Shown here: in pieces, positions 10,584-34,479 of the stretch | How the letters are laid out: each line of letters opens with the position of its first letter | Position numbering within the stretch: the first letter of the stretch is position 1 | Source of the DNA: Sulfuricurvum sp. MLSB | GTDB lineage: Bacteria > Campylobacterota > Campylobacteria > Campylobacterales > Sulfurimonadaceae | DNA length: 64,000 nt | NCBI RefSeq assembly: GCF_000747095.1 | Contig: NZ_JQGL01000006.1 | Location: forward strand, 1-64,000 | Reading direction: 5' to 3' | Position numbers and translations under genes: made by a program | Notes under the pieces: generated by a model | Database searches by the model: none | Told to the model about the DNA's origin: nothing | The model's input: the letters and a program-made list of their open reading frames with translations, nothing else

Positions 10584-10668
10584 GCGGACGTGGTGAAATT
10601 GGTAGACACGCCAGACTTAGGATCTGGTGCCTCACGGTGTGAAGGTTCAAGTCCTTTCGTCCGCACCA
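10584..10668 (+). tRNA. tRNA-Leu (TAG), integration site of the island
   Basis: Class II tRNA with a long variable arm (TGCCTCACGGTGT region), acceptor GCGGACG paired with CGTCCGC, and anticodon stem CCAGA/TCTGG with loop CTTAGGA giving TAG. CCA is encoded. Bases 10612 onward, from the anticodon stem to past the 3' end, recur exactly at 34418-34479, so the 3' half present here was supplied by the island while the gene stayed intact. Last gene of the tRNA cluster. Confidence 0.95.
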
Positions 10669-10673
10669 CCCTT
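10612..10673 (+). repeat. attL: 62-bp direct repeat from tRNA-Leu 3' half
   Basis: Identical to 34418-34479 over 62 bases, beginning in the anticodon stem (CAGACTTAGG) and running five bases past CCA. The flanks differ on both sides. This is the signature of tyrosine-integrase insertion into a tRNA gene. Confidence 0.95.
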
Positions 10674-10731
10674 AAATAGGGACTTTCAAAGCTTTTTCTT
10701 CATTTTTTAAGAATTCACAAAAAACTTTTTT

Positions 10732-10749
10732 TACTACATTTTTACTACA
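10732..10749 (+). repeat. Paired TACTACA sites near attL (putative integrase arm sites)
   Basis: TACTACA at 10732-10738 and 10743-10749, each preceded by a T run, about one helical turn apart. The same pair with the same orientation occurs near attR at 34274-34292, and a reverse-oriented GTAGTAA lies near 10840. Paired, phased short repeats next to both att sites are what arm-type binding sites of a lambda-family integrase look like. Inference only. Confidence 0.55.
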
Positions 10750-10932
10750 AACATCAATCTGAGTTCAACCTTTTCAATCCACGATAATTTTATATCTTCA
10801 AAAAACCTTCCCTTTCAGCTACGTTCATGAAAAAATTCGTAGTAATATGAAACGTTTTGATACGCTTTGACAGCCTGTGAAAATATATTAACATAGCTCA
10901 TTTTTTCAACTATGATTTCCCCGTTACGATTA

Positions 10933-11021
10933 TTCAACGGGGTACCAAGTGTTCAATCACTCCCAAGTGATGGAAGCCTCTCGGCTTCCCGTTGAGTAAT
11001 TCAATTGGGACACTTGGTACC
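10933..11021 (+). ncRNA. Candidate structured RNA or DNA element with nested and alternative hairpins
   Basis: A 12-bp perfect inverted repeat (GGTACCAAGTGT at 10941-10952 with ACACTTGGTACC at 11010-11021, extendable by T-G and C-G pairs) encloses two more hairpins: ATCACT/AGTGAT (10956-10971) and GGAAGC/GCTTCC (10972-10989). A further stem TTCAACGGG/CCCGTTGAG (10933-10941 with 10988-10996) crosses the outer stem, so the element can form a pseudoknot or switch between two folds. A possible -35 (TTGACA) lies 60 bases upstream. Could be an expressed RNA, a replication or processing site, or a recombination site; not matched to a known family. Confidence 0.4.
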
Positions 11022-11297
11022 TGTTCCCTTACTCACAAATCCATTCCCATTGTTCAATATATGAAAGGCGTATCATCAAGCGTCTGGTGAAGTATATATT
11101 TTGATTGTGACCATCATAGTCTCTGCTCATAATGCAGTACCCGAAATATAGAAAAAAGAGTAGAAGTTGATGCGGCTGCGGCTGGCTCTCACAGGGAAAC
11201 CAAAAGGGGGATCGATCACACGCGAAAAGTAGCGCTGTGGTAGATACTATGCTCTCTGCACCTTCTCATACCGACCTAAATCCAAGACTCTCACATA

Positions 11298-11409
11298 ATG
11301 GACACGGAACAAACTGAACAGCACAACCGACAGTTGATGGTATGCTCTTGCCGAGCGTGAAAAAGGCGAAGAGGCTATTCGACGATCAATCGAAACGACG
11401 GAATTATAA
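11298..11409 (+). pseudogene. Possible frameshifted small reading frame
   Basis: ATG at 11298 opens MDTEQTEQHNRQLM, then leaves frame; in the +1 frame the text continues as YALAEREKGEEAIRRSIETTEL and a TAA at 11407-11409. Both pieces have charged, protein-like composition, and a one-base change would join them. No ribosome site is seen and I know no homologue, so this is weak. Confidence 0.2.
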
Positions 11410-11540
11410 CGTAAATGTAGTTAGTAGAATTTCAAGTGCGGAGAAGTATGCCCAAAATTTTGGGAGCTTTGAAGCCCCTAACTGCGTCATCTCCTCCCTT
11501 CTCACTCTGGAATTTGACTTGCTATCATTCTCTTAGACTT

Positions 11541-14696: not shown

Positions 14697-16026
14697 CTGT
14701 CACCTCCCAATGCCCGCCTTTGGCCGATCCGATCCGTCTGATAATCCCCTCGGATTTGAGTTTTTGGATCTGCCATTCGATCCCTTTGGTGCTGATGCCC
14801 GCGGCCTCAGCCAACTCTTCCATCGTAACGGAAGGGGTTTTTCTCATAGTTTCGAGAATGTTCTCCCTAGTTTTTCCCCTAGTTTTTCCCCTAGTTTCTA
14901 CCGCTTCATCGGCTGCCGGTATAAACCCAAAAGAAATCCACAGACCGTTATCGTATCGAAGGGTCGGCTCGACACGGTTGTAGGCTACCGATTCGCTGAT
15001 GATTTTATCGATACCGCGCCCCCAGGATTCGATAAGCCCTGCGAGGAAAAAGATATGGGCGATATCGGGGTTAAACGGCTTGGACGGGTGCTTTTGTTTC
15101 AGCGTCTCCACGCTCCACCCCTGCGGGAGATCCCCGGCATTCCAAATCATCAGCTTGTCATCGTACACGCTGATCTGGATCGGGGTACCGCTGCCGTAAT
15201 CCTTGTGCGCCACGGCATTGATGAGCGCTTCACGCAAAGCGAGTTTTGAGACCGGGAACGTCTCGATCCTCTGTATCCCCTCGTAGGTGATATCGGCTTT
15301 GAGGTATTTGGTATAGAGCAGATCGATCGTCTTTTCGATCTGATCGAACAGATTGCCGTGGATCTCATCGTGAAAGCGCAAATCGCTGTCTGTTTTAAAA
15401 TACCCGATCTTGATGTAGGCACCGGTGATGTATCTTTCGGCATCTTTGGCAAACAGCAGTACCGAGGCACGCTTGAGATACTCCCCGTCGATGAGATGAA
15501 GTTTGTCGATCAGTTCCTCGTCCGTTTCGTTCAGGATATCGACATCCAGACGCTCTTTCTTGGCGGCACGCTGGCGAAACGTCTCGATCGCCGAGGGGTC
15601 CAAATCGGTGCGCTTGATATACGGTATCGGTACACCGTCCCACCGTTTCCCCTGTTTTTCGAGTAAAAACCGATCCAGCGCTGCGCCTTTGAGCTCTTGT
15701 TTGGTGCTACCGGTACGGTAATGGTATTGCCCCTTATAGCTGACGGGATACGGATAGGGTTCGGTAGCGATGGAGAGGTATTGTCGCCCCTGCGCTTCAT
15801 CCATCTGGACATCGACGATGATGCCGAGCAGATCGCGGACTTTGTTGGGGATGTCTTCGAGCAGTTTTTTGGCATTGTCGATCCCGACGATCTCACCCAC
15901 ATCATCGACACCGATGTAGATCGTACCCCCCTTGGCATTGGCAAATCCGCAGATCCACTGGATATACTCGTCGCGCCAGGATTGTTTAAATTCGGTGTCG
16001 TGGTTTTCGTGTGCGGTGAGTTTCAT
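14689..16026 (-). CDS. AlbA_2 (Schlafen-like)/GHKL-type ATP-binding, winged-helix protein
   Basis: A 445-residue protein of the family formerly called AAA_4 / divergent AlbA-2. The N-terminal AlbA_2 domain shows ENHDTEFKQSW and ICGFANAKGGTIYIGVDD, a likely nucleic-acid-binding fold shared with Schlafen proteins. The centre has a GHKL-like ATP-binding region (LREALINAVAHKDY, then VYDDKLMIWNAGDLP and GLIESWGRGI), and the C-terminus after TRGKTRGKTRE has a winged helix-turn-helix (MEELAEAAGISTKGIEWQIQKLKSEGIIRRIG). Family members often lie inside type I loci; their role is not settled and could be regulatory or defensive. ATG at 16026 overlaps the upstream stop (ATGA); the track start at 16044 is less likely. 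Confidence 0.85.
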   Translation of the reverse strand: MKLTAHENHDTEFKQSWRDEYIQWICGFANAKGGTIYIGVDDVGEIVGIDNAKKLLEDIPNKVRDLLGIIVDVQMDEAQGRQYLSIATEPYPYPVSYKGQYHYRTGSTKQELKGAALDRFLLEKQGKRWDGVPIPYIKRTDLDPSAIETFRQRAAKKERLDVDILNETDEELIDKLHLIDGEYLKRASVLLFAKDAERYITGAYIKIGYFKTDSDLRFHDEIHGNLFDQIEKTIDLLYTKYLKADITYEGIQRIETFPVSKLALREALINAVAHKDYGSGTPIQISVYDDKLMIWNAGDLPQGWSVETLKQKHPSKPFNPDIAHIFFLAGLIESWGRGIDKIISESVAYNRVEPTLRYDNGLWISFGFIPAADEAVETRGKTRGKTRENILETMRKTPSVTMEELAEAAGISTKGIEWQIQKLKSEGIIRRIGSAKGGHWEVTGE

Positions 16027-17195
16027 AAATTGATCCCAGAACAAAAAGCTCTTATCGGATGTATCAAAACTTCAAAAAAATGAGGAGAAGCCAAATCAAT
16101 CAAATATATAGCCATTAGAATAAAACCGACCGTAAAAACAATAACGACCGATTGATATATACTCGTAAGTTTTAAAATGCTTCGAACTCTTCCGTTTACT
16201 CCATCTTGTTCTTTAACCAATACCTCTTTATCAATTCCAGATTTTTCCGAAATCAACTGAAATACATGATCAAATCTCACTTTTAAATCAGAAATACCTT
16301 TTTTCATTGTGCTAATGGTGAAGAAACTAAAAAGGCTCCAAACAAAAATTATGCCAGAAGCAATCAATAGAGGATACGGTTCTTTTTCAAATCTAAATAA
16401 TAGATAAATATATACTCCAAACTGTATTGGAAGTGAGTTCACTTTAGATAAAAATTCGGAGAGTGAATCCTGTAACGTTTTAAAATATTTGTCCTTTTCC
16501 TCATCTAACTTTGATTGGAATTCTTCAAATGAAAATTTGTTTTTATAAAGTTCAAATTCTCTATTGGCTTTTTCTACAATTTTTGCCAAATTTTCCAAAG
16601 CAGTAATGAAGCGGTAGTTAATATCTTTGCAATCCTGAACTTTTTCAATCATATTGTCTCGAAAAAAACTCAAATATTCATTTTCCTGACATTTTATAGA
16701 CAGCTTGTGATAGAGTTCTTTTAACTCATGATTCCTTTCATAGAAATCCAAAGATTTGTCTTTGTAACCAACCTCTATCTTGCCTCTCTTCTCTGATAAA
16801 AAAATAAATTTTTCATGCAATATATCGTGGTATGAAGCAATCTCTTTTTCAATAAGAAGTTTTTGTATTTTGGATGCAAAAATCAAGTTTTCAAAAAATA
16901 GATTTTCATCGGCATGACCATCTTGAAAATAGATTTGATCTTGAAGGATGATAATAGGCTTATCGGACGTTTGATCTGCATAATGCAATAAACAATCTTT
17001 TTTTGTTTTGTAGATATGTAATGGCTGAATAGATAAGTCGATATAAATGCCTTCAGCATGCTTCTCATACGTTATCGAATATTCAGCAAGAATTTCAGTT
17101 GAATTTTCGAGTTCTTTTGAAACGATTTCCAGGTCATTGTCTGAAATGTCATTACATTGTACGAGAAGATTAAATAGCTTTGAAACGTCATTCAT
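16023..17195 (-). CDS. Unknown membrane protein with coiled-coil domain, in hsd operon
   Basis: 390 residues with no domain I recognise. The first ~250 residues are soluble and rich in Glu/Lys/Asn with long helical, probably coiled-coil stretches (around 160-250, e.g. FEEFQSKLDEEKDKYFKTLQ). The C-terminal part has about three membrane spans: IQFGVYIYLLFRF, YPLLIASGIIFVWSLFSFFTI, and VVIVFTVGFILMAIYLIDLA. The gene lies three bases after the NA37 stop and overlaps the AlbA_2 start, so it is cotranslated with them. It is strongly A+T-rich unlike hsdM and hsdR. A DNA-binding partner next to a membrane-anchored coiled-coil protein suggests a sensor/effector pair, but the function is unknown. Confidence 0.75.
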   Translation of the reverse strand: MNDVSKLFNLLVQCNDISDNDLEIVSKELENSTEILAEYSITYEKHAEGIYIDLSIQPLHIYKTKKDCLLHYADQTSDKPIIILQDQIYFQDGHADENLFFENLIFASKIQKLLIEKEIASYHDILHEKFIFLSEKRGKIEVGYKDKSLDFYERNHELKELYHKLSIKCQENEYLSFFRDNMIEKVQDCKDINYRFITALENLAKIVEKANREFELYKNKFSFEEFQSKLDEEKDKYFKTLQDSLSEFLSKVNSLPIQFGVYIYLLFRFEKEPYPLLIASGIIFVWSLFSFFTISTMKKGISDLKVRFDHVFQLISEKSGIDKEVLVKEQDGVNGRVRSILKLTSIYQSVVIVFTVGFILMAIYLIDLASPHFFEVLIHPIRAFCSGINL

Positions 17196-17197
17196 TT

Positions 17198-18178
17198 TTA
17201 ATCGGTTCTTCCGTGATTATTCAATGCATTTTGAATTTGCTGGACTAAGCCTGGAGAATTGATGACTACGGAGCCATCAACTATTCGAATTGCATTGGGG
17301 TTAAAACTACTTCTGGGAGCAGTAAGTTCAATGTTATCAGCTTTTACAGAGACCTTATAAAACTTTTGCAAGTTGCTACCAGTGAGTTTAAACTCTCCAT
17401 CGATGTCAATATTATTTTCTGAGCAGAAGTTTGAAATCTTATTTTCATCTGCATACAAGTATTGACTGAGTTCTCGCAGATTAATCACTCGGTCTCTATG
17501 ACTTTTGGTGTAGTCAAAAATCTTTTTCTTGAGTTCTTCTCTCGTTACACCTGCTGGCAAATCGATTTGATTAGCAACATCATATAAAGCTTCAGCATCT
17601 TTATTTTCCTGCTTCGTATCATCAAGTCCTATCCAGCCTTCAAAGTAATGCGATATATCAGTATTACCACGGACAAGGGAAACGTACCTGTCTTCTGACG
17701 TACCATTCAAAATTGAAAGATTGATTTTTGCACCCATTGCAAAATGTTCAACATCGAGATATTGCGTAGAATTCAGATCCCAGCTACCAGCATTGGGCGT
17801 CAATTTGGATCCATCCGTATTTCTTACAAGGAAAAGTGCTAAGAAATCATGATTTGAAGCATACTCTGCAAAAACAAGATAACCGCCTTTTGCTGCCGAA
17901 ATACCATCTATACGGTCTTTCAGATTTTCAGTCAAATTGCGAGAAAGAGATAAAATTTCAAAACTTTCGAATGACTCTACACGATCTTGAAATCCTCCAT
18001 CGGCGAACTTCGCTCGTTTAACAGTTTTTCTTGCAAAAGATTCTTCAAGAGAATTGACAATTCTTTTAACATTTTCATTCGTAACATCTAAGGTATCATT
18101 TGAAAGATATATACTCGCACTATTGGTACTGCCTGCTTCTTTGGTAATCTCGTGAATTACAATGGATTTTAATGTCAT
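17198..18178 (-). CDS. NA37/NdpA (YejK-like) nucleoid-associated protein
   Basis: A 326-residue homologue of the 37-kDa nucleoid-associated protein family (NdpA, E. coli YejK). Shared landmarks are IVIHEITK at the start, KGGYLVFAEYASNHDFLALFLV, TQYLDVEHFAMGAKINL and YVSLVRGNTDISHYFEGWIGLDD, all in the family's order and spacing. YejK binds DNA and has been linked to topoisomerase regulation; chromosomal copies are usually not found inside restriction loci. I chose the ATG at 18178, one base after the hsdS stop, rather than the track start at 18229. A+T-rich. Its placement between hsdS and a membrane protein suggests it recognises DNA on behalf of a defence module; that is inference. Confidence 0.85.
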   Translation of the reverse strand: MTLKSIVIHEITKEAGSTNSASIYLSNDTLDVTNENVKRIVNSLEESFARKTVKRAKFADGGFQDRVESFESFEILSLSRNLTENLKDRIDGISAAKGGYLVFAEYASNHDFLALFLVRNTDGSKLTPNAGSWDLNSTQYLDVEHFAMGAKINLSILNGTSEDRYVSLVRGNTDISHYFEGWIGLDDTKQENKDAEALYDVANQIDLPAGVTREELKKKIFDYTKSHRDRVINLRELSQYLYADENKISNFCSENNIDIDGEFKLTGSNLQKFYKVSVKADNIELTAPRSSFNPNAIRIVDGSVVINSPGLVQQIQNALNNHGRTD

Positions 18179-18179
18179 A

Positions 18180-19343
18180 TCAATCCCTTTCTTTCGGTAT
18201 TTCAACTTCAATCGTTGCCATTTTCGCAAGCAAAATTTGTCGCATGGTATTCAAAAGCTGAGTCTCTTTAGATTTGGCTTTTATGCGTTCAAAAATTGGC
18301 TGAACAAATTCATGAAATTTTTGCATTGTATTCAAATCGATTTTCATAATCGGATATTCATTTAAATAATCACTATGCACACGTTCTCTTCCTGAAGAAC
18401 CTATCATACTGCTGATTGCATAAGTTCTGAACTGCTCATCTCTGGCAAAACAATAGATCCAAAACGGGCTAATGGCATTTTTAGCACGCATTACAATAAA
18501 TTCAGTCGAGCCAAAAGCTATTTCACCATCTTCTAAACAATCGACAAATGCCGTTTTACCATTTTCAAGACACGGAGTTATTCGTGCCAGCAATGTATCA
18601 CCATTTTGAAATTTAGAGCCGGCAGTATAAGGACGCTTGGCTACCTGTTTAATACTTAGACTGTCTTCCTGTACGTCAGCCATTTCTACATAACTACATA
18701 AAGTGTCTTTTTTGATTGAATGTGTCGGATTAAACTCGATATATTGTTCCAATGTCGTACTATTTTCTGTATCAATGACTTCGTCCATATTAAACCACTG
18801 CCGATAGAGCGCTTGTGCTGTCTCTTCAAGTTTTTGGTTCAACTGTTCGTTAAGGCGGATACACTCGGTGATCGTATGATACTCCCGCACGATCTCGCGC
18901 TGTTTTTCGATCGAGGGGATAGGAAGTTCAATATCACACATCTCTTCCCAGCCAAAAATCTCCCGCACGCTGCCGTGTGACATATAACGGGCATAACGAT
19001 CGAATTCGGGACGGCGAAACCACATCATCAAATATTCGGGAAGTAATTCTTCAGAATCGATAATTTCAAAAACCGTATAAGCTTGAGAAACCAAAGCTTC
19101 TTCATGTGTTTCCAACATTGCAATTCCAATTTTATCACCACGGCGTGAAGTATCTGGAACGTAGGTAAACTGATACTTTTTAACAACTTTATATTTCTTG
19201 AAATCAGTTCCAACCGTATTTGCTATAGATTCAATAAATTTTTTTTGCGTTGAAACACCTAAGAGATTTTCTTGCTTATCTTCAACATTGCGAGTATCTA
19301 CTTGACGAATATATTTGCCAAGATCCTTATAGTTCGATCGCAT
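18180..19343 (-). CDS. hsdS: Type I restriction system specificity subunit HsdS
   Basis: 387 residues with two target-recognition domains, each followed by a conserved helical spacer: PIPSIEKQREIVREYHTITECIRLNEQLNQKLEETAQ-type text after the first and a helical FVQPIFERIKAKSKETQLLNTMRQILL after the second. It sets the DNA sequence that HsdM methylates and HsdR cuts. The central spacer is visibly richer in G+C than the two recognition domains, as expected if recognition domains are swapped by recombination. ATG at 19343 overlaps the end of hsdM by 17 bases. The TRD sequence itself does not let me predict the target site. Confidence 0.93.
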   Translation of the reverse strand: MRSNYKDLGKYIRQVDTRNVEDKQENLLGVSTQKKFIESIANTVGTDFKKYKVVKKYQFTYVPDTSRRGDKIGIAMLETHEEALVSQAYTVFEIIDSEELLPEYLMMWFRRPEFDRYARYMSHGSVREIFGWEEMCDIELPIPSIEKQREIVREYHTITECIRLNEQLNQKLEETAQALYRQWFNMDEVIDTENSTTLEQYIEFNPTHSIKKDTLCSYVEMADVQEDSLSIKQVAKRPYTAGSKFQNGDTLLARITPCLENGKTAFVDCLEDGEIAFGSTEFIVMRAKNAISPFWIYCFARDEQFRTYAISSMIGSSGRERVHSDYLNEYPIMKIDLNTMQKFHEFVQPIFERIKAKSKETQLLNTMRQILLAKMATIEVEIPKERD

Positions 19344-21032: not shown

Positions 21033-21713
21033 TTAATCGGCAATTTTAACTGTGTCAGTTCCATTGTAATAATCGTTTAATTTAATATCCCAAGATAAAG
21101 CTTTTGATTTTAGCTGTTCTATCACAATATCCGGGTTATGCAGAAGATAGTAGCAATCCTTGTTATTTATATTTTCTAATAATGCATATAACTCTTTTTT
21201 TACGTCTTTTAAAAAGGCTGATGTATCGTAAAACTCCTCGATTTTATCTCGAAGAAAATTTTTAGAATCTTCCTTCGAACCAAAGTATTTGTAACTTTTC
21301 AAGATTTTTATAAGTACAAAATGAACTCTATTCCCAAATTTGTGAGATTTCCTTTTGAATAGAAAGAAACCTTTTTCTTGTTTGTAAAACTTTTCTAAAA
21401 TTTTTTTGACAATCTCTTTTCTAACGAGATCTACTTCTCCCCCATATTCCTGGAAATCAAGTATCAGATCTGTTAACTTGATCTTATTTTCATTCTCTTC
21501 TATCTTCATATTTCCTTCTCCAAAAATAAGCCAATTAGGATCAATCTTAAATTTATGTTTCAAAATAGTCACTTCTTCAATCTGCAATCTACGTTTTCCG
21601 TGTTCGAGGTTATTATAGATTTGTTTTGAATAATTAAACTCTTGTGCCATTTCCACCTGTGTTTTACCAATTTTTTCTCGTGCTTCTTTTAATCTTTTGG
21701 CGATTTCTTGCAT
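21033..21713 (-). CDS. Phage-type transcriptional repressor, XRE family
   Basis: 226 residues. The N-terminal helix-turn-helix (AKRLKEAREKIGKTQVEMAQEFNYSKQIYNNLEHGKRR) is of the Cro/CI type, followed by KHKFKIDPNWLIFGEGN, a phrase typical of prophage repressors. The remaining ~140 residues are Lys/Glu-rich and show no LexA-like peptidase motif, so it is probably not cleaved by RecA. The ATG at 21713 has GGAG seven bases upstream; the track start lies four codons earlier. Divergent from a three-gene operon; the two dyads at 21734-21750 and 21785-21800 are its likely operators, so it probably represses itself and those genes. Confidence 0.8.
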   Translation of the reverse strand: MQEIAKRLKEAREKIGKTQVEMAQEFNYSKQIYNNLEHGKRRLQIEEVTILKHKFKIDPNWLIFGEGNMKIEENENKIKLTDLILDFQEYGGEVDLVRKEIVKKILEKFYKQEKGFFLFKRKSHKFGNRVHFVLIKILKSYKYFGSKEDSKNFLRDKIEEFYDTSAFLKDVKKELYALLENINNKDCYYLLHNPDIVIEQLKSKALSWDIKLNDYYNGTDTVKIAD

Positions 21714-21733
21714 AAGTTTCTCCATATTTTTAG

Positions 21734-21800
21734 GTCAATATTTTATTGACTGTCATGAATCATATCGAAAACAAATCATACAAATCAATATTTTATTGAC
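21734..21800. promoter_or_regulatory. Two dyad operators between repressor and divergent operon
   Basis: GTCAATATTTTATTGAC at 21734-21750 and TCAATATTTTATTGAC at 21785-21800 are nearly identical copies of a dyad (TCAAT/ATTGA around ATATTTT), about 50 bp apart. They lie between the repressor ATG and the first gene of the divergent operon. Best explained as repressor binding sites controlling both directions. Confidence 0.75.
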
Positions 21801-21891
21801 TTTAGACCGCAAGCGAAAATGCTCCTGTAAGCTTGTGAAATCGTACGAAATAAAACATAAGCAAAAAGGCCTTTTTGAAAAAGAGAAAATC

Positions 21892-22158
21892 GTGACCGAA
21901 AAAGAGGTTGTTGAAAAGATGTATGAAAAACATCAAAAATGGGTGTTGGATGCCAAAGAAGCGCCCAAAGAATGGGGACGAAGTTACTCATATTTGAGCA
22001 AACTATTTGGTGGGAAGGATTCGATTCCAGACTCAATTATTTTGGAAAAGCAAATAATCCCTCCGTGGATTATGTATGGGGAAAGGCGGATGTGGAAGAT
22101 CACCGACATCGCTAATTGGATCGTAAATACAGAACTAAAAGGAGAGACAAAACAATGA
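21892..22158 (+). CDS. Small unknown protein, first gene of divergent phage-like operon
   Basis: 88 residues from a GTG at 21892, chosen because the protein-like text begins there (VTEKEVVEKMYEKHQKW) and AGAGAAA lies upstream; the track ORF start at 21697 runs through the operators and the repressor start. The text WGRSYSYLSKLFGGKDSIPDSIILEKQIIPPWIMYGERRMWKITDIANWI looks like a small winged or MerR-like DNA-binding domain of the excisionase/AlpA kind, with a C-terminal 'WKITDIANWI' helix. Not assigned with confidence. Stop overlaps the next start (ATGA). Confidence 0.6.
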   Translation: MTEKEVVEKMYEKHQKWVLDAKEAPKEWGRSYSYLSKLFGGKDSIPDSIILEKQIIPPWIMYGERRMWKITDIANWIVNTELKGETKQ

Positions 22159-22682
22159 ATGAACGTTTAAATTCATTACAACAACTAATCAAACTCAGTC
22201 AAGACGATCAGAGAAGACATCTTAACTATTTAGCAAAATGCCCAATGGAAACGAGGTTGGCACTGTTTGAGAAGCAAAAAGAGATTTTTTATTCTTTGCT
22301 GCAAAAATACAAAGGGGTCATAACAACAAGTGATATCACCTATGCTGCACTTATTTTAGCTATCGGTGTAACACGTTCCTTGGAAAAAAAACTGACGAAA
22401 AAAAGTTTTGGTGAGTTGTCGCTGGATGAAATACGTGAGCTCTCAGCATCACGTGCAGTATCATTCAAAAATACACTGACCAAGAAATCCCCTACACATG
22501 AAAAACTGATGGGATATTGGGCAATCATCCGCACACTTCGACTGGATCACATGTACAGTTACGAGCGGATAGCCCTGTATCTAAAAAAGAAACATCGCTT
22601 TTCAGTTGCACAGTCAACCATTCAAAAAAAATGGAAAGAACTCGAAGTCTCAATAACAAATCAAAAGGAAAACACCAAATGA
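22155..22682 (+). CDS. Unknown protein, second gene of the operon
   Basis: 175 residues from the ATG at 22155, which overlaps the previous stop by four bases; the track start at 22116 is inside the previous gene. Helical and basic, no signal peptide or membrane span. The last third (SYERIALYLKKKHRFSVAQSTIQKKWKELE) reads like a helix-turn-helix and suggests DNA binding. I do not recognise the family. Confidence 0.65.
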   Translation: MNERLNSLQQLIKLSQDDQRRHLNYLAKCPMETRLALFEKQKEIFYSLLQKYKGVITTSDITYAALILAIGVTRSLEKKLTKKSFGELSLDEIRELSASRAVSFKNTLTKKSPTHEKLMGYWAIIRTLRLDHMYSYERIALYLKKKHRFSVAQSTIQKKWKELEVSITNQKENTK

Positions 22683-23233
22683 GTACGTATCAGCATGTAG
22701 AAACAGCCATCGTCCCACTAGATGCACAAGAGGATTTCAAACTTTACTTAATCTCGCAACCCAACAATCCAAAAAAACCAACTTTATTGGGAATGTTTTT
22801 AACCTATAAAGATCTTTATACTTCGCCAAGCATTCAAGTGTCTAATCATATCAGATCGGCATTTCGGCTGTTTGGGAACGAAAAGCTTCGAAAAATGGAG
22901 TCAAACAAATATTTCAGTATTGTAAAACGAACTATTGAAAATGATACGTTCACATCGCTGCATTGTACATTTATTCAGGGTGAGAACGTTTATATCGATT
23001 TATTGCGTGCCTATGAGATCACACAAGCGTGGGACCATGTGCTAAGTGAATATTACTTGCGGCATCTGTACAGCACCAAAGATAAGCTGTTGGTTGTTGC
23101 ACACGGAGATGGAATCAGCAAAAGTTTTTCTTCTGAATGGAATGATTCTGACATACAGAAAAAATCTATTCCAAAAATTCCGGATACTGTAAATACATTT
23201 TTGAAAGAAATAGTGCACACGGAAAAAATTTGA
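22679..23233 (+). CDS. Unknown protein, third gene of the operon
   Basis: 184 residues from the ATG at 22679, which overlaps the previous stop (ATGA). No membrane span, signal peptide or known motif; the centre (FTSLHCTFIQGENVYIDLLRAYEITQAWDHVL) looks like a mixed alpha/beta fold. The track start at 22517 is a shadow of the preceding gene. The strict ATGA overlaps of the three genes imply a fixed stoichiometry or a shared pathway. Confidence 0.6.
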   Translation: MSTYQHVETAIVPLDAQEDFKLYLISQPNNPKKPTLLGMFLTYKDLYTSPSIQVSNHIRSAFRLFGNEKLRKMESNKYFSIVKRTIENDTFTSLHCTFIQGENVYIDLLRAYEITQAWDHVLSEYYLRHLYSTKDKLLVVAHGDGISKSFSSEWNDSDIQKKSIPKIPDTVNTFLKEIVHTEKI

Positions 23234-23604
23234 CGTTTTCATATCCGTTTGAAAACCATTTCTTTCGGCATTTTCATACGCCATTTCGCTAAACTCTCCT
23301 AATCCCCTCCATTGGGGATTGCAAGCTATATTTTTCTGCAAAATAGAAACCGAGCACTTTTAAAACCTACCGATACAAAACTCTCCGAGTAAAATCGAAT
23401 GAATTTCCATGTTACAGTTCCCTCGTTTTTATATTATGAATCTAAAAATCGATGGAGCTCAGAATGACCCAAGGGTCATCCGTACCACCGTAACCAAAAG
23501 AGCCGTGATTACTCTTTACACGTAAATAATAAATGAAGATTGACTTAACAAACCTGCCGGACGGCGGCTAAATCCGTTCACTATTTCTGTAGCGAGAAGA
23601 CCAC
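23234..23604. other. Intergenic leader before the second tyrosine-recombinase-like gene
   Basis: 371 bases without a gene. Two short perfect hairpins stand out: AATCCCC/GGGGATT (23301-23320) and ATGACCC/GGGTCAT (23464-23479), plus a G+C-rich CTGCCGGACGGCGGC patch near 23560. No clear T-run terminator. It might hold a terminator, a long 5' leader or recombinase-binding sites. Confidence 0.5.
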
Positions 23605-24528
23605 ATGCGAGGATCTGTTTATTACCAATCGGCGGAACTGATTAAAGTTATCTTTGTCGAAGGTGCCAAAAAAACAGAACGTGTCGATAAGACACATCCT
23701 CATTACCAATGCATAACTTCATATAAGACCGCCAAAGCGTACCGCGAAGTTTTCAATAATTTCTTTCACTATCTGCGTGAACATTGGAAAATCAAAGATC
23801 CATTGTTGATTACGGGTGAAATGGTCGCTTCTTATATGGAGTACAAGTCAGAATACCATGTTAGTAAGCAATATTTAGAGAAGATATCTTCAGCCATGGC
23901 CAAATTAGAAATTGCGCTAAAACGTCATACCTTGTCTAAATACGGTGAAGCAGGTGATTATGATTTTTCGGTTCGACAAAAAATTTTAGATAGTTCGCGA
24001 GACTTGAAACTGGTAGCAGATAATTATCACAACCGCACCTATAAACATCCCCACGTACTTATCGCATCACTAACACAACCAGAACATCGGATTGCAGCTA
24101 CTATTCAGCATGAAGGCGGTGCACGAATCGAAGGGGTAACACTCATCAAATCGGATCAACTGCACGGCATACGATTCGATTCTATCACCGGTACAGATAA
24201 GGGAGTTATTTTTACCAAAGAAAAAGGAGGAAAGGAAGGTGACGTACTGGTTTCAACAACTACCTACAATCGTCTTTTGCACCATTTGCAAACCAATAAA
24301 CATTTCAAAATAAATCGACAAAAATACAGTCATGATATTCGTACAACTTGCGAAAAAATAGGGATTAGTGCTGAGGGATCGCACGGGCTGAGATGGAATT
24401 TTGCGAAGCGTCGTATGATGGAATACGCCAAAGCAGGCTATACATATGAGCAGAGCCTGCAAGCAGTTTCGTGGGAAATGAAACATAATCGTGCGAGCAT
24501 TACCACTCATTATTTGGGGGGATTTTAG
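23605..24528 (+). CDS. Tyrosine recombinase-like protein
   Basis: 307 residues with the layout of a tyrosine site-specific recombinase: an N-terminal SAM-like arm domain (KTAKAYREVFNNFFHYLREHW) and a catalytic domain in which I can match box I Arg (HEGGARIEGVTL), the beta-hairpin Lys (TKEKGGKEGD), HGLR (HxxR) and a final HYL Tyr (SITTHYLGGF). Spacing is loose compared with the island integrase and the box II His/Trp position reads MKHNRAS. ATG at 23605 has a GAGAAG upstream. It could be a second integrase, a resolvase of island dimers, or a phage-derived remnant that still has its catalytic set. Confidence 0.72.
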   Translation: MRGSVYYQSAELIKVIFVEGAKKTERVDKTHPHYQCITSYKTAKAYREVFNNFFHYLREHWKIKDPLLITGEMVASYMEYKSEYHVSKQYLEKISSAMAKLEIALKRHTLSKYGEAGDYDFSVRQKILDSSRDLKLVADNYHNRTYKHPHVLIASLTQPEHRIAATIQHEGGARIEGVTLIKSDQLHGIRFDSITGTDKGVIFTKEKGGKEGDVLVSTTTYNRLLHHLQTNKHFKINRQKYSHDIRTTCEKIGISAEGSHGLRWNFAKRRMMEYAKAGYTYEQSLQAVSWEMKHNRASITTHYLGGF

Positions 24529-26820: not shown

Positions 26821-27093
26821 GTGAAATTTGATTTGTCCAAAGAAGAACATCCTGACATCAAAGCGTATTATGATGCATTGACCGAACATATCAAACTGCT
26901 CCGAAAAGAACGGGGAATCAGTCAGTTAAAATTGGCCAATATTCTGGGTCACAACTCCACTTCATTTATTGCCCGGATTGAACTGCGTCAGAACAAGGCC
27001 AATTACAATCTTGCCCATCTTGTTCTTTTGGCAAAAGAATGGAGCCTGGAGGTCAAAGACCTCCTTCCTGATTACCCAGTCCTCTTCAAATAA
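26821..27093 (+). CDS. Small XRE-family helix-turn-helix regulator
   Basis: 90 residues, essentially one HTH domain: LTEHIKLLRKERGISQLKLANILGHNSTSFIARIELRQNK. Start is GTG at 26821 (no ATG is available in this frame); ribosome site weak. Divergent from the exported-protein operon and convergent with the nine-gene operon, so it could control either. Similar to antitoxin-type or element-maintenance regulators in size. Confidence 0.72.
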   Translation: MKFDLSKEEHPDIKAYYDALTEHIKLLRKERGISQLKLANILGHNSTSFIARIELRQNKANYNLAHLVLLAKEWSLEVKDLLPDYPVLFK

Positions 27094-27120
27094 AACATTT
27101 ATCTTACTTGGATTATCCGC

Positions 27121-27408
27121 TCATACTTTATTAAAGTGCTCTTTTTCCTCTATTCGTTTCAACGCCTTATCTACCCGTTTGTTCATGAGATGCCTCAGAT
27201 ACAGCAGCGCCAGGATCACTACCGTCTCTACGGCGATCACGACCCCTTTTTTTCCATTGATCAGATATCCCGCGTAACTCGAGGAAAAATAGGCAAGCGT
27301 ATAGATAACAACGGGATACCATTTTTTGAGGGCTGATAGAAGATACAGCCCAACGAGATACATCAGCCCAAAAAGTCCCATCGGCAGATAGAGCTCAAAC
27401 GTTTCCAT
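27121..27408 (-). CDS. Small membrane protein, ninth gene of unknown operon
   Basis: 95 residues from the ATG at 27408, overlapping the upstream gene by 14 bases. Two or three membrane spans (YLPMGLFGLMYLVGLYLLSAL, VVIYTLAYFSSSYAGYLI, GVVIAVETVVILALLYL) and a basic Lys/Arg tail. No family recognised. Track start at 27534 is inside the previous gene. Confidence 0.62.
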   Translation of the reverse strand: METFELYLPMGLFGLMYLVGLYLLSALKKWYPVVIYTLAYFSSSYAGYLINGKKGVVIAVETVVILALLYLRHLMNKRVDKALKRIEEKEHFNKV

Positions 27409-27928
27409 GATCGTCTTCTCTCTTTTCTTCAGACCGCCGGTTGCGTTTTTCGGCATAGGATTGAAAGTCGAATGTTTTACATTCCGCGCCCGTTCCAATC
27501 CTCTCCTCGATGATCCTCGCACACTCGGCGTCATCGGCCAGCTCTTCCATCAGGTGTTCAATAGAGAGCTCGATCGAGCGTTTGACGCGATAGGCGGTTT
27601 CACTATTTTCCCCGAAAGCGAGGCTGAGTTCCCTCATCGCCGCATCGGGCAGGATAAGCCTCCATGCCTCCCGGCTATATGGCACCCCTTGTAGATTCCG
27701 ATCTTCGGGAGGAATGAAAGGTTTTGATGGGGGGAAATCTTCTTGGGCAACATACTTGTAATGCTCGATCATCCGGGGATCATTGCCGGCTCTTTCCCAG
27801 CGTTCGAGTTCTTCTTGATCTTTGACATGTTTTTGCTGTACACGTACCTGATTTTCGTGATAGAACCAATAAATTACTATACCCGACGCTATGGTGAAAG
27901 CCATGATCGCAATAACATAGAGCTCCAT
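27395..27928 (-). CDS. Single-span membrane protein, eighth gene of unknown operon
   Basis: 177 residues from the ATG at 27928. One N-terminal span (ELYVIAIMAFTIASGIVIYWFY), then a soluble, acidic and helical part (VKDQEELERWERAGNDP; SIELSIEHLMEELADDAECARIIEERIG). Looks like an anchored cytoplasmic domain. Start lies just after the preceding stop at 27930. Not recognised. Confidence 0.65.
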   Translation of the reverse strand: MELYVIAIMAFTIASGIVIYWFYHENQVRVQQKHVKDQEELERWERAGNDPRMIEHYKYVAQEDFPPSKPFIPPEDRNLQGVPYSREAWRLILPDAAMRELSLAFGENSETAYRVKRSIELSIEHLMEELADDAECARIIEERIGTGAECKTFDFQSYAEKRNRRSEEKREDDHGNV

Positions 27929-27929
27929 A

Positions 27930-28343
27930 TCAGTCTCCGTTGAGACAATAGACCGGACGGATCCCTGAAGCGGCCGCCAGGGCAACAAACAGCGCGATGA
28001 GTCCCAGCAGCGTCATCGGGATATAGAGGATGCTCTGTGCTAGGCTTCCTGCCAGTGCAACAAGCGGCCGGGTGTGTTTGAAATTGTTCCGAATCTGGAC
28101 AATGAATATCCACAGACCGATGAAGAGAATAATCATCCCATTCAGCGGATCACCCTGCCAGTTGGACCTGGCCATATGGTATCCCGCATACATCGCCACA
28201 TACGAGGCGGCGTACCATCCGAAGCTGTATGTTGTAAAGAAGTGGTATTTCGCTTCCTTGTAGGTGAAGCTATTGAACCACAGCATAAACCGATAGAGTG
28301 CGATCACTGCAGCAAACGCTGCGATTATTTTTAAAATAAACAT
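27930..28343 (-). CDS. Polytopic membrane protein, seventh gene of unknown operon
   Basis: 137 residues with about four membrane spans (LKIIAAFAAVIALYRFMLWF; YAASYVAMYAGYHMA; LNGMIILFIGLWIFIVQI; ILYIPMTLLGLIALFVALAAA). No known motif. Spaced by one base or so from the next gene, indicating cotranslation. Confidence 0.65.
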   Translation of the reverse strand: MFILKIIAAFAAVIALYRFMLWFNSFTYKEAKYHFFTTYSFGWYAASYVAMYAGYHMARSNWQGDPLNGMIILFIGLWIFIVQIRNNFKHTRPLVALAGSLAQSILYIPMTLLGLIALFVALAAASGIRPVYCLNGD

Positions 28344-28352
28344 GGTTTCTCC

Positions 28353-28613
28353 TTACGTTTCATTCTTTTGGGGGCGGTACCCCTTTTTAGTTTTTTGAAG
28401 CAGAAGGATCTGTAAGTATTCTTCTGCTTGTTCCTGATTCCCGTAATAGGTTTTTATGACCCCTTTGGGGGAGATTTTGGAGGAGGATCCAAAGGTTCGG
28501 ATCACCACCCACTCCCCAAACAGAGAGGAGACAAGCTCGATGGTGTATCGGCGCTCTTTGCCTTTGACACTACGATAGAGTGTTCTCATCATCGTCGTAT
28601 TCACTCTGATCAT
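28353..28613 (-). CDS. Stand-alone WGR-like protein
   Basis: 86 residues from the ATG at 28613 (a second ATG pair at 28595 is possible). The core YTIELVSSLFGEWVVIRTFG, followed by GVIKTYYGNQEQAEEYLQILLLQKTKKGYR, matches the WGR fold (YxLxLxxxLFGxWxLxRxWGR...A...KxxKGY), except that the signature Trp-Gly-Arg reads T-F-G. WGR domains bind nucleic acids in PARPs and in some plasmid- or defence-linked proteins. Sixth gene of the operon; the only predicted nucleic-acid binder besides the RNase H-like one. Confidence 0.65.
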   Translation of the reverse strand: MIRVNTTMMRTLYRSVKGKERRYTIELVSSLFGEWVVIRTFGSSSKISPKGVIKTYYGNQEQAEEYLQILLLQKTKKGYRPQKNET

Positions 28614-28722
28614 TCTCTTGATCTTTTCTCTCAAGATACAACCCGTACAGCCCAAACAGACCGATCCATATCATGCTGCCCAGCAGAATAACTGCGGGAT
28701 TGAATACACTGTTAAATTCCAT
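28570..28722 (-). CDS. 50-residue membrane protein, fifth gene of unknown operon
   Basis: From the ATG at 28722 (GAGGAAGGA-type ribosome site upstream) it encodes one membrane helix (PAVILLGSMIWIGLFGLYGLYL) followed by a highly charged tail (RKDQENDQSEYDDDEN). It overlaps the WGR gene start. Below the usual size cut-off, but position, ribosome site and composition support it. Confidence 0.55.
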   Translation of the reverse strand: MEFNSVFNPAVILLGSMIWIGLFGLYGLYLERKDQENDQSEYDDDENTLS

Positions 28723-28733
28723 TCCTTCCTCCT

Positions 28734-29435
28734 CTATGCGCACACCAGGGCGCGGCATTCGTTTCTGGCATCCTCTATCCAGCTCTCATCGAACCGCACT
28801 TCTCTTAGAAAGTTATCCAGAGCAATCCGTTTAATCGCATGGACATTTCCGAAGCGCTCATGGAGTTTGTCTCTGAGCGTCTTTGAGCCCAGTTGTCTGA
28901 GCAGCGATAGGACCAGCTTGTTCGCGTTGTTCATCCCTTTGGGCAGCTCTTTGTAAAAAGGGGCCGCCTGGCTGATGGAGCAGAGAAACCCGTAGGTATC
29001 GCCCCGGGCAAGGGGCATGAACATCGCCACCAGCATTTGCTCGCTCAAGGAGCCAAGATGCGATTCCAGCAATGCAAGATGGGGCAGCTTCTCTTTTTTA
29101 GGCCGTGCCTGCGATGCCAGGCGGTCCACCGTTTTTAGGTATTCGCGCTTGAACCACATGAACTGGATCTTCTCGAACATCGGCGCATAAAATCCCTTTA
29201 ATGCTTCGGTATCGATGTTGATGTTGTCATAGACAAAGACACTGTTGCGATGGTTATTCAAGAGCGCATGCTCGATCGCGCAGATCAGGGCCATCTCTTC
29301 AGCCTCGTTGACTCCCGTAGCGCAGAGGCTGAGGGAGTGGGTCTGGCCGCTGGAGAGGTTTTTGATGCCGATGCCGGCATGGCCGGTATCAGGATCAAAC
29401 GACGCGTCGCTCAGATAGATGACGTTGGGCTGCAT
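28734..29435 (-). CDS. RNase H-fold protein of unknown function
   Basis: 233 residues from the ATG at 29435. The first ~80 residues match an RNase HI-like fold: strand NVIYLSDASFDPDTGHAGIGIKNL with the first acidic residue, GVNEAEEMALICAIEHAL with the Glu, and SVFVYDNINID with the next Asp. Three of the four usual catalytic acids are thus placed; the C-terminal ~150 residues are helical and unlike RNase HI. It may be an active nuclease or a binding module. Fourth gene of the operon and its only likely enzyme. Confidence 0.7.
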   Translation of the reverse strand: MQPNVIYLSDASFDPDTGHAGIGIKNLSSGQTHSLSLCATGVNEAEEMALICAIEHALLNNHRNSVFVYDNINIDTEALKGFYAPMFEKIQFMWFKREYLKTVDRLASQARPKKEKLPHLALLESHLGSLSEQMLVAMFMPLARGDTYGFLCSISQAAPFYKELPKGMNNANKLVLSLLRQLGSKTLRDKLHERFGNVHAIKRIALDNFLREVRFDESWIEDARNECRALVCA

Positions 29436-29764
29436 GGGTGTTCTCCTTTTGCGCACGCCTCAAGCAGGTGTACCTTCAATCCGAGCTCCTGAAGCTCCAG
29501 CTTCTTGAGTCGCTGTTTTTCCATCAGGATCATCGCGGTATCGAACTCCCTGACCCGGAGAAGCTCTTCGACAATCGATTCGATCCTCTCCTGGATCCTT
29601 TCGGGTAGCTCTGATGCCCCCCGTTTCATGAAACCGGTTTCAAAGATCGTGTTCCATCCCACCTTGATCATCAGGATCACCAGGATCATCGCCCCGCTCA
29701 TGAGTGCGAACACCAGAAAGATTTCAAAAAAATGGTGCAGTTGAAGCCAATCAAGAACGCGCAT
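29411..29764 (-). CDS. Membrane protein, third gene of unknown operon
   Basis: 117 residues. One N-terminal span (FFEIFLVFALMSGAMILVILMIKVGW), then a helical cytoplasmic part with coiled-coil character (LPERIQERIESIVEELLRVREFDTAMILMEKQRLKKLELQEL). Overlaps the upstream gene by 14 bases and the RNase H-like gene by ~25, so translation is closely coupled. Confidence 0.65.
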   Translation of the reverse strand: MRVLDWLQLHHFFEIFLVFALMSGAMILVILMIKVGWNTIFETGFMKRGASELPERIQERIESIVEELLRVREFDTAMILMEKQRLKKLELQELGLKVHLLEACAKGEHPCSPTSSI

Positions 29765-30272
29765 CGTTCACCTCCTGGGGATTGGTCTTTTCAGTGCTTT
29801 TAATCACTCTTTTGCCCGACCAGTAGGATAGTCCCGTTCCCGCACGTATCCCAAGACGGGCCAACAGCGACATGGCCGTCGAGAAAAGGAAAAAGATCAG
29901 CGGTTCAAACGCCATAGACGAGGGAAACTCTTTGCCCCGGACGCTGCAGAGTCCCGCATCGTTCAAGACGGTATCGCCTTTGATGAACTGTCCCTCTACA
30001 AGAATCCACCCGTTGGCCGGATCGGCGATGGTTCGTGTTCCTCTCCACAACCCGCACTCGATGCTGTGGCCTTGTTTAAACTCCTCATAAACGAACCGCT
30101 TGTTGGCCTCATCCTCAAGATTGCTCTGAAGGATCAGGGTATTCATGAAAAGAATAAGGATCCCCAGTAACGCGACAGCTGTGTTGGCGAACATAGTCAT
30201 CCCCATACCGATCATGACCGTTCCATAGAACACCCATGTGAACGGATCGCTGAAATTCAGTACCGTTTCCAT
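29751..30272 (-). CDS. Membrane protein, second gene of unknown operon
   Basis: 173 residues. Two N-terminal spans (FTWVFYGTVMIGMGMTMFAN; TAVALLGILILFMNTLIL), a central soluble stretch with two Cys (SIECGLWRG; NDAGLCSVRG) and a third span (FEPLIFFLFSTAMSLLARLGI). The central part (ADPANGWILVEGQFIKGDTV) may face the periplasm. Not recognised. Confidence 0.65.
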   Translation of the reverse strand: METVLNFSDPFTWVFYGTVMIGMGMTMFANTAVALLGILILFMNTLILQSNLEDEANKRFVYEEFKQGHSIECGLWRGTRTIADPANGWILVEGQFIKGDTVLNDAGLCSVRGKEFPSSMAFEPLIFFLFSTAMSLLARLGIRAGTGLSYWSGKRVIKSTEKTNPQEVNDARS

Positions 30273-30273
30273 C

Positions 30274-30681
30274 CTAACACTCCTTTATTATGGTCTGTTC
30301 GATCACTTCAAGACGCTCATGGATCCGATACTGCTCGTGCTTACACAGATAATGGCTGCGGATGTCACGCTTCATGATCCCACATACGGTGTACCAGGTA
30401 AAGCCCAAAAAGCTTTTTTTGACGATCAGCTCCTCAGGATGGCAGCACAAAAGCTTTTCATAATCCCACCCGCTCTCTTTATGCTCCGTATAAAGGGTCT
30501 GTTCCCCCTCGATCTCGTAGCGATTCTTCTCGGCATCGTAGTGCAATATGGCGTTGCGGAATATCTTGTCCTGTTCATGGCACTCCACAAAGTAAAATCT
30601 CTCCCCCCTGGGATTGATCAGTATCTCTTTACGCGCTTCATCGATCAGTAGATCGATCTCTTTATACATAACCTCGCTCAT
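30274..30681 (-). CDS. Unknown soluble protein, first gene of nine-gene operon
   Basis: 135 residues, ATG at 30681 with GGAGA six bases upstream. Soluble, with four Cys including CCHPEE and CKHEQYR, which with nearby His could bind a metal, and a likely beta-rich N-terminal half (PRGERFYFVECHEQDKIF). No family recognised. One base separates its stop from the next gene. Confidence 0.65.
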   Translation of the reverse strand: MSEVMYKEIDLLIDEARKEILINPRGERFYFVECHEQDKIFRNAILHYDAEKNRYEIEGEQTLYTEHKESGWDYEKLLCCHPEELIVKKSFLGFTWYTVCGIMKRDIRSHYLCKHEQYRIHERLEVIEQTIIKEC

Positions 30682-32940: not shown

Positions 32941-33008
32941 AATCGACATATTTTAAAAACATGTCGAAAAACAAACAAAAAATCGACATATTTTAAAAAC
33001 ATGTCGAA
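32941..33008. repeat. Two 28-bp dyad repeats exactly 40 bp apart
   Basis: Copies at 32941-32968 and 32981-33008 are identical and each is a dyad with TCGACAT/ATGTCGA arms around an A/T-rich centre. They separate the 3' ends of the Fic gene and the integrase. Too short and too few for a CRISPR array. They could be protein-binding sites, for a directionality factor or plasmid-type partition/replication protein, or a bidirectional terminator. Confidence 0.6.
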
Positions 33009-33019
33009 ATAGTGTATAT

Positions 33020-34168
33020 TTAAGAAAATAGCTTCATTGTCATGTCATGTCTAATATTGGGAATCAGATGGGCGTATCGCATCGTCATTTCGATATGTTT
33101 GTGCCCGAGTTGTTCTTTGATCTGCAAAATATCCAGCCCGGCTTCTGCAAGCCAACTCGCATGAGTATGCCGCAGTGAATGGGCAGTGATTTTGTATTTC
33201 GTATCTCGCTTCTTATTTCCAGGGATGACGATTTCTACCGCCGTAGCAAAATAGTCCGGCATTCTCAAGATGATCCCACCATCGCTGTTGTTGATAACGT
33301 TTTCATTGACCCTGTTTTCATAGAGATAATCGATCGTTTCGCGAAGGATCTCATTCATTGCGATATGGCGCTCATTGCCATTTTTGGTCTTTTTGAAAAA
33401 AATCGTATTGTTGGCGAAATTGACATCAGCCCATTTCAACCGGGTATCGATACCTGTTTTGTTTTTCTGAGATGAGGCACCCGTAATTTCACTGAACCGT
33501 GCGCCCGTAAAAAGGAGCAGCACCGTCAAATGATACATCAAAGGGTGTGCCGATTTCAAAATCTCTAAAATTTTTTTGGCCTGGTCTTTCGTTAGATAAC
33601 CTTGCCGCTTGTTATCTATGTCCGGCATCTTGACTTTTCCTTCACCCATAGGATTGGCAAAGTTTTTGAGTATGTTATGTTTGATCGCATAATTAATGAT
33701 CGTTCGGATGAGTGTCATCTGATGCTTGACCGTCTGCGGCTCCAGCCCTTTTGCTGTAAGATCCTGCTTGAATTTTTCGAAATCCAAAGAGGTCAAATCT
33801 TTCACACTCTTATGCCCGAAAACAGGCTTGATGTGCTTCTTATAATTCTTTTCGTCCATTAGATATGACTTCTTATTTGCCTTGGCATAGCTGTAAAATT
33901 CTTCCCAAATAGTGTCAAATTTTAGTTTTGAAGTTCTGCCCGCTTTAATCGTCGGTTCTTCATCATGCTGAAGTTTATACTTCATTTCAATCAGTTTTGC
34001 ATAGGCATCTTTTACGGTGAAATCAGAAATTCTTGTTTTTTTACCTACAAGTACTTTAACCGGCTTACCGTGATCATCACGATAATTAATGTAAAAGGAT
34101 ATATCGCCATTTTTTAGCTCATTGACCCAGACACCCTCATATCGTCCACCAACTGCCTTCAATGCCAT
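33020..34168 (-). CDS. int: Island integrase, tyrosine recombinase family
   Basis: 382 residues from the ATG at 34168; the track start 15 codons upstream is less likely. N-terminal arm-binding domain (SFYINYRDDHGKPVKVLVGKKT), core-binding SAM-like domain (~80-170), then the catalytic domain with Arg in TGARFSEI, Lys in KKTKNGNERHI, HSLRHTH (HxxR), LGHKHIEMT (box II His) and the Tyr nucleophile in MRYAHL. Complete. It sits 250 bases from attR and reads into the island; it almost certainly catalysed insertion into tRNA-Leu. It lies at the opposite end from the intact tRNA. Confidence 0.95.
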   Translation of the reverse strand: MALKAVGGRYEGVWVNELKNGDISFYINYRDDHGKPVKVLVGKKTRISDFTVKDAYAKLIEMKYKLQHDEEPTIKAGRTSKLKFDTIWEEFYSYAKANKKSYLMDEKNYKKHIKPVFGHKSVKDLTSLDFEKFKQDLTAKGLEPQTVKHQMTLIRTIINYAIKHNILKNFANPMGEGKVKMPDIDNKRQGYLTKDQAKKILEILKSAHPLMYHLTVLLLFTGARFSEITGASSQKNKTGIDTRLKWADVNFANNTIFFKKTKNGNERHIAMNEILRETIDYLYENRVNENVINNSDGGIILRMPDYFATAVEIVIPGNKKRDTKYKITAHSLRHTHASWLAEAGLDILQIKEQLGHKHIEMTMRYAHLIPNIRHDMTMKLFS

Positions 34169-34273
34169 GTTATAAGTCCCCTGTTTTGAAAGAAAATTAC
34201 TTTTTATCCACAATAGATCATTTTTTCGTTGAAAAAGTATAACAAAGTTTTCGTAATAGGAAGTGGCTTTTTT

Positions 34274-34417: not shown

Positions 34418-34479
34418 CAGACTTAGGATCTGGTGCCTCACGGTGTGAAGGTTCAAGTCCTTTCGTCCGCACCACCCTT
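34418..34479 (+). repeat. attR: tRNA-Leu 3' fragment (62-bp direct repeat)
   Basis: Exact copy of 10612-10673. It lacks the 5' half of the tRNA so it is not a gene. It is followed by a T-rich stretch (TTCTCTTTTTTTATTT) that was probably the original downstream end of the tRNA operon before insertion. Confidence 0.95.

Follow-up and report, generated by a model that had tools for sequence, protein, structure and literature searches.

Tyrosine recombinases with an adjacent target site are familiar as plasmid resolvases, among them Cre/lox, ResD/rfsF, and Xer. Recombinase-type proteins also adjoin origins of transfer. SGI1 carries mpsA, mpsB, and an oriT, with an essential small RNA (sgm-sRNA) encoded between mpsA and the oriT (PMC6414798, PMC9299015), and the stem-loops of this oriT are conserved despite sequence divergence (PMC8409611). 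In pIGRK, the oriT lies just upstream of mobK, and the core-binding domain is absent from MobK, MpsA, and TcpM alike (PMC8152469).

The DNA considered here, positions 21734 to 23233 of the window (the whole stretch of 64,000 nucleotides analysed, from Sulfuricurvum sp. MLSB), contains two operator-like dyads and three genes, g1, g2, and g3, that face a repressor gene. By comparison of related loci this operon is half of a unit, the other half being a structured noncoding locus and a recombinase gene, tyr, which lie beyond position 23233 and travel with g2. Our favored reading, to which we give a probability of only about 0.4, is that these genes and dyads form the regulatory front of a mobility module on an integrative, probably mobilizable island, and that the repressor keeps mobilization silent. 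We favor it because the layout resembles the modules of MobK on pIGRK and of MpsAB, oriT, and sgm-sRNA on SGI1.

The resemblance to SGI1 lies in a recombinase-type protein with a small DNA-binding partner and a structured noncoding region just upstream, on an island that has a separate integrase and no classical relaxase. The differences are that MpsA has no core-binding domain (MpsB supplies it), whereas tyr seems to be full length; that the SGI1 partners and g1 to g3 are unrelated, judged by description; and that SGI1 responds to activators from a helper plasmid, whereas the operon here has a private repressor. With MobK of pIGRK, tyr shares the tyrosine recombinase catalytic set and occurrence on elements typed as non-mobilizable; the noncoding DNA immediately before the gene, the place of the MobK target site, here contains the candidate site. 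MobK, set beside tyr by description, differs in being short, in lacking the core-binding domain, and in working with RP4 functions and without counterparts of g1 to g3. Cre/lox, ResD/rfsF, and Xer resemble the module as plasmid-borne tyrosine recombinases adjoining a single conserved site, but here there are in addition a conserved HTH partner (g2), a covarying pseudoknot, and copies in integrated islands. Our literature searches returned no description of a module made of g2, the locus, and tyr.

The repressor gene (21033..21725, minus strand) encodes an XRE-type protein of 230 aa with an N-terminal HTH and an unknown C-terminal domain. Its Pfam matches are all N-terminal and all to HTH families (HTH_19, 1.3e-8; HTH_3, 2.5e-8), and the Pfam search gave no match to an S24/LexA peptidase domain. 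An earlier note on this DNA, made from the sequence alone, had described a phage-type repressor without a LexA peptidase, which agrees with these matches; induction by DNA damage (an SOS switch), which it considered, finds no support in a repressor for which no cleavable peptidase domain was found. The sole close orthologue in 60 genomes, in the genome designated G009, is 53% identical and occupies the same place. Because the G009 protein begins MKEIAKRL, the true start of the repressor is probably the second ATG, giving MQEIAKRL.

The region between the repressor gene and g1 (21726-21891) contains both dyads, which the earlier note had correctly placed between the repressor and the three genes. 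The sequence TCAATATTTTATTGA is present in two exact copies (21735-21749 and 21785-21799) that, extended by one base per arm, become 17-bp dyads 50 bp apart. One of these, O1 (21734..21750; GTCAATATTTTATTGAC, GTCAATA-TTT-TATTGAC), is perfectly symmetrical, and the other, O2 (21784..21800; ATCAATATTTTATTGAC, ATCAATA-TTT-TATTGAC), has one outer base changed. The dyads are more than a chance feature: with up to one mismatch allowed, 60 genomes from the genus and the order contain just five matches to the 17-bp pattern (two here, two in G009, and one in G012), and a reversed control pattern matched twice. Paired dyads were found in just two places, each beside this repressor or its orthologue; the G009 pair has the same position and a spacing of 49, and the dyads are kept within intergenic DNA that has otherwise diverged. 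The G012 dyad is a single copy with no repressor nearby, and the dyads are absent at three loci that have g1 and no such repressor (L022, L031, and L033). Because the pairs are restricted in this way, O1 and O2 look like a private operator pair to which the repressor would bind. A wider regulon was considered and rejected, the operator pattern not being found elsewhere in the repressor's own genome. Promoter-like sites were as numerous in this DNA as in shuffles. An XRE repressor divergent from an operon across paired 17-bp dyads is also the plan of phage CI and RstR-type switches, from which the present arrangement differs in that a peptidase domain, a recognized Cro on the opposite side, and phage genes are all absent from the part studied. 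By themselves, the repressor and its dyads would be ordinary, and it is the conserved module behind them that deserves attention.

The three genes are joined by two 4-base ATGA junctions, and none reached a curated Pfam or NCBIfam cut-off or had a convincing PHROG match, so the picture of three ATGA-linked unknown genes stands. The first, g1 (21892..22158, plus strand; GTG start), encodes a protein of 88 aa. It has no direct Pfam match, but a profile from an alignment of nine relatives matched HTH_17-type proteins that fill this position at other loci (hhalign probability 95.9%, E 6e-9), and one such occupant, at locus L080, scores above the HTH_17 cut-off. Because its profile matches the proteins that take its place, g1 is likely a small DNA-binding protein, as had been suggested from its sequence. 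The second gene, g2 (22155..22682, plus strand), overlaps g1 and encodes the constant partner of tyr, a protein of 175 aa with an HTH-like C terminus. Its structure model is confident and all-helical (pLDDT 89.5), and the fold had no match in the PDB. Three members of the g2 family weakly matched DUF5338 (best E 0.0012), a family that we take to include the oriT-binding protein TraK. The third gene, g3 (22679..23233, plus strand), overlaps g2 and encodes a protein of 184 aa modeled as two beta-beta-beta-alpha repeats. A fold search with g3 returned PUR-alpha-like matches at E 0.006 but with a TM of about 0.3, a mere lead, and any resemblance to the PUR-alpha nucleic-acid-binding proteins is weak.

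The tyr gene (23605..24528, plus strand) starts 371 bp beyond g3 and encodes a protein of 307 aa. Its catalytic set (R174, K207, H260, R263, H294, and Y303) is conserved in all sequences that extend over these positions (56 to 57 of 57), which identifies tyr, at the level of sequence, as a tyrosine recombinase with a complete active site. It also seems to have a SAM-like core-binding domain: Phage_int_SAM_1 was matched by 10 of 17 family members, with a best E of 6.4e-5 and a value of only 0.22 for the tyr of the window. On account of this domain we do not file the module among the TR-like relaxases, a comparison made by description only.

A search with g2 found loci throughout the order, nearly all of which, where long enough, also encode tyr. 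The genome collection yielded 57 tyr loci, nearly all from Campylobacterota by title, and the distribution is patchy, with tyr in 18 of 298 genomes of the phylum at up to three copies each. Among the 46 informative loci, those with at least 3.5 kb of DNA upstream of tyr, g2 is present at 37, and at 29 of these it lies on the same strand, no more than 4 kb upstream of tyr. Relatives of tyr are also found on plasmids of Aliarcobacter, Sulfurospirillum, Trichlorobacter, and Pseudodesulfovibrio. Three of these four plasmids (pAFAEC, pGLOV01, and paDPRO, two of them from Thermodesulfobacteriota) carry a g2 relative as well, and 28 of the 32 plasmid records with a tyr relative are typed as non-mobilizable. 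What precedes g2 varies: besides this repressor, the position is taken by other XRE proteins, by a ParA-like gene, or by HTH_17 or AlpA genes together with a DUF3987 protein. Likewise, the DNA directly 3' of tyr is different at nearly every locus. Because gene content before g2 varies, the neighborhoods indicate that the constant part is g2 plus tyr and that the repressor and dyads are a regulatory front shared by this island and its relative in G009.

The candidate origin of the module as a prophage or satellite was rejected, relatives of tyr being absent from 50,697 phage records and from IMG/VR. Distant relatives, retrieved with the pCORI-2 protein as query, occur on small cryptic plasmids (L156, L157, L158, and L159; L158 is a 4.6-kb Klebsiella plasmid), and 116 of the 123 records returned by that query are typed as non-mobilizable. 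Four contigs binned as Gracilibacteria, Woesearchaeota, or Lutibacter (L045, L050, L057, and L068) carry a Campylobacterota-like tyr and are probably misbinned mobile contigs. At one locus, L027, a serine resolvase gene lies directly 5' of tyr.

The island that carries this copy of the module is bracketed by an exact 62-bp repeat of a tRNA-Leu, with the left copy inside the 3' end of the tRNA gene (10612..10673, plus strand) and the right copy at the island end (34418..34479, plus strand). The 23.9 kb so delimited (10612-34479) has the border repeats of a tRNA end and the integrase that define a tRNA-integrated genomic island. At the same tRNA, G009 carries a syntenic island whose repeat measures 57 bp, whose integrase end is 80% identical, and whose cargo differs. 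In G024, the tRNA-Leu is closely followed by chromosomal DNA of a kind that in the window is found far to the right, and no island DNA was detected. In the present island, a type I restriction system and a Fic protein are among the cargo. The integrase gene, int2 (33020..34213, minus strand; Pfam Phage_integrase, 3.3e-22), adjoins the right repeat, and tyr does not. Because int2 sits at the attachment site and tyr occurs on plasmids, tyr is probably not the integrase of the island, and we rejected it for that role.

The position of int2 also bears on excision, which the earlier note had suggested as one purpose of an inducible module. A local repressor-operator pair facing an island operon does survive from that suggestion, while induction by DNA damage and a part in replication found no support; as for excision, the integrase lies elsewhere (33020-34213), the comparisons point to a mobility module, and control of excision becomes one reading among several. 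On such a reading, g1 would be an excisionase-like directionality factor, the operon would set the balance between integration and excision by int2, and tyr would be an accessory recombinase. The HTH_17-like character of g1, a fold common to known excisionases, and the occurrence of the module in islands with a separate integrase are in its favor. We nevertheless consider it improbable, given that g2 and tyr are found on plasmids too, that int2-type integrases were detected at only 15 loci, and that the conserved unit is g2, the locus, and tyr, not g1 and an integrase.

In the gap between g3 and tyr, a conserved noncoding stretch (23310..23604, plus strand) is a candidate oriT, RNA, or recombination site. 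Its core, as covered by our covariance model (23502-23582), includes the motif GAAGATTGACTTAAC (23535-23549) and consists of a hairpin, often with an ATGC loop, then the motif GCAGAWTGACTYAAC, then an H-type pseudoknot. In the pseudoknot, GCC...GGC (or GCT...AGC) is crossed by a second helix that varies by locus (TGATAG...CTATCA, GGGCAG...CTGCCC, GAACAG...CTGTTC, or GAGCGG...CCGCTC). Across 29 sequences, 93.9% of the pseudoknot cells are paired, and in 35 cells both partners have changed. Shuffles gave 11.3 such cells, a comparison that relatedness among the sequences can inflate, and sliding the pairing gave at most 9, a control that retains this relatedness. A second clade has simpler hairpins downstream of the same motif. 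The covariance model, which was built from many of these loci, finds one locus per place, nearly always just upstream of tyr; in 60 genomes it made 12 matches, 11 of them at tyr. The twelfth (L161, G058:C47, locus 7584-7671) lies with an N-terminal fragment of g2 and Zorya-like genes, and tyr is absent from the stretch examined, as if the module there had decayed or been replaced. Rfam gave no match at the gathering score in the noncoding locus and none that was convincing at E<=5. An integron or cassette array was rejected, both the motif and the model occurring once per locus, whereas an integron has repeated attC sites around its array of cassettes.

Several wobble pairs fall within the pseudoknot when the tyr-sense strand is read, which would suit an RNA. 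One could take the locus to be only a cis-acting RNA leader that tunes tyr, or genes inserted before it, with the set serving some other role such as cargo exchange. At most loci the end of the conserved DNA is indeed a few tens of bases from the start of tyr, and the differing DNA after tyr, together with other genes that stand between or instead, would suit exchange of cargo. We find this quite improbable. At L049 (1323-3049) and L070 (8608-10001), AbiE-type toxin-antitoxin genes occupy about 1.4-1.7 kb between the locus and tyr, and because the locus is kept despite this insertion, it appears to be more than a ribosome-binding leader of tyr. As for cargo exchange, the motif occurs once per locus, so a second site flanking the cargo is absent.

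This leaves two likely jobs for tyr, to start conjugative mobilization or to resolve dimers, and dimer resolution is the main rival to our reading. The set would then be a stability module in which tyr acts as a resolvase at the locus, converting dimeric forms of the circular island or of plasmids to monomers, with g1, g2, and g3 as accessory, architectural, or regulatory proteins that are repressed while the island is integrated. A complete catalytic set with a probable core-binding domain, a single site adjoining the recombinase gene, residence on large plasmids, and ParA-like genes in the vicinity of some copies are all as a resolvase would have them. An integrated island would hardly need one, however, and a covarying pseudoknot with wobble pairs on one strand is unexpected in a site for double-strand recombination, and we consider this explanation rather unlikely.

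In favor of mobilization, the reading that we put at about 0.4, we count the private operators, the linkage of g2 and tyr on plasmids as well as islands, the conserved catalytic residues, and the covarying pseudoknot. To these we add the separate integrase, the lack of a recognized relaxase or coupling protein, and, as a weak link, the DUF5338 matches; against it stands the apparent core-binding domain of tyr, which is missing in MobK, MpsA, and TcpM. The repressor would bind O1 and O2 and hold both its own promoter and that of the operon low. Its release, by a route other than LexA-type cleavage, would allow g1, g2, and g3 to be made and to assemble with tyr on the structured locus, whose surroundings near GATTGACTTAAC are the candidate cut region. 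There tyr would cut one strand, much as MobK does at the oriT of pIGRK, or MpsA/MpsB at that of SGI1, and so start transfer through a helper's secretion system, with excision of the island left to int2 at the tRNA-Leu repeats. No relaxase, coupling protein, or secretion gene was recognized among the island genes searched, and in this genome no relaxase was recognized with PF03432 and no coupling protein with PF02534; given the latter result, another element would need to supply the helper.

What is new here is a conserved module with a structured locus outside Rfam and proteins outside the named families. Many plasmids and islands without a recognizable relaxase get typed as non-mobilizable. 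If the module starts transfer, it would explain how such elements move and would offer a signature for searches, made up of the pseudoknot locus, g2, and tyr, as well as a further case, beside SGI1, in which a recombinase-type mobilization protein has a structured noncoding stretch as its neighbor. Should dimer resolution prove to be its job, the module would remain a family without a name, and its structured site would still be new. A more ambitious proposal, which we regard as distinctly doubtful, is that the module represents a new class of system, in which a full-length tyrosine recombinase, a structured RNA or single-stranded DNA locus, and the HTH partner g2 serve mobilization or recombination on plasmids and islands of Campylobacterota and Thermodesulfobacteriota, here under a private repressor.

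Several other parts of the island also attract attention. Two adjacent genes (16023-18229) weakly match the NCBIfam DS-1 antiphage pair, below the cut-offs, and the protein of 17198-18229 has a further match, again below the cut-off, to the nucleoid-associated protein YejK. Near other copies of the module, a small HTH gene recurs along with a minus-strand block of small genes (26821-30681); the block includes several membrane-protein-like genes, one WGR gene, and one RNase H-like gene. At the left end, about 870 bp of noncoding DNA (10674-11540) is 91-93% conserved in L022, L030, and L033 and, for part of its extent, 77-79% conserved in L084 and L092, two loci of Sulfurimonas. Within it is a long inverted repeat, whose arms are GGTACCAAGTGT and ACACTTGGTACC; Rfam gave no match. 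Between the Fic gene and the integrase gene (32942-33009), ATCGACATATTTTAAAAACATGTCGAAA occurs twice, each copy an inverted repeat, and the two copies look like a second operator pair.
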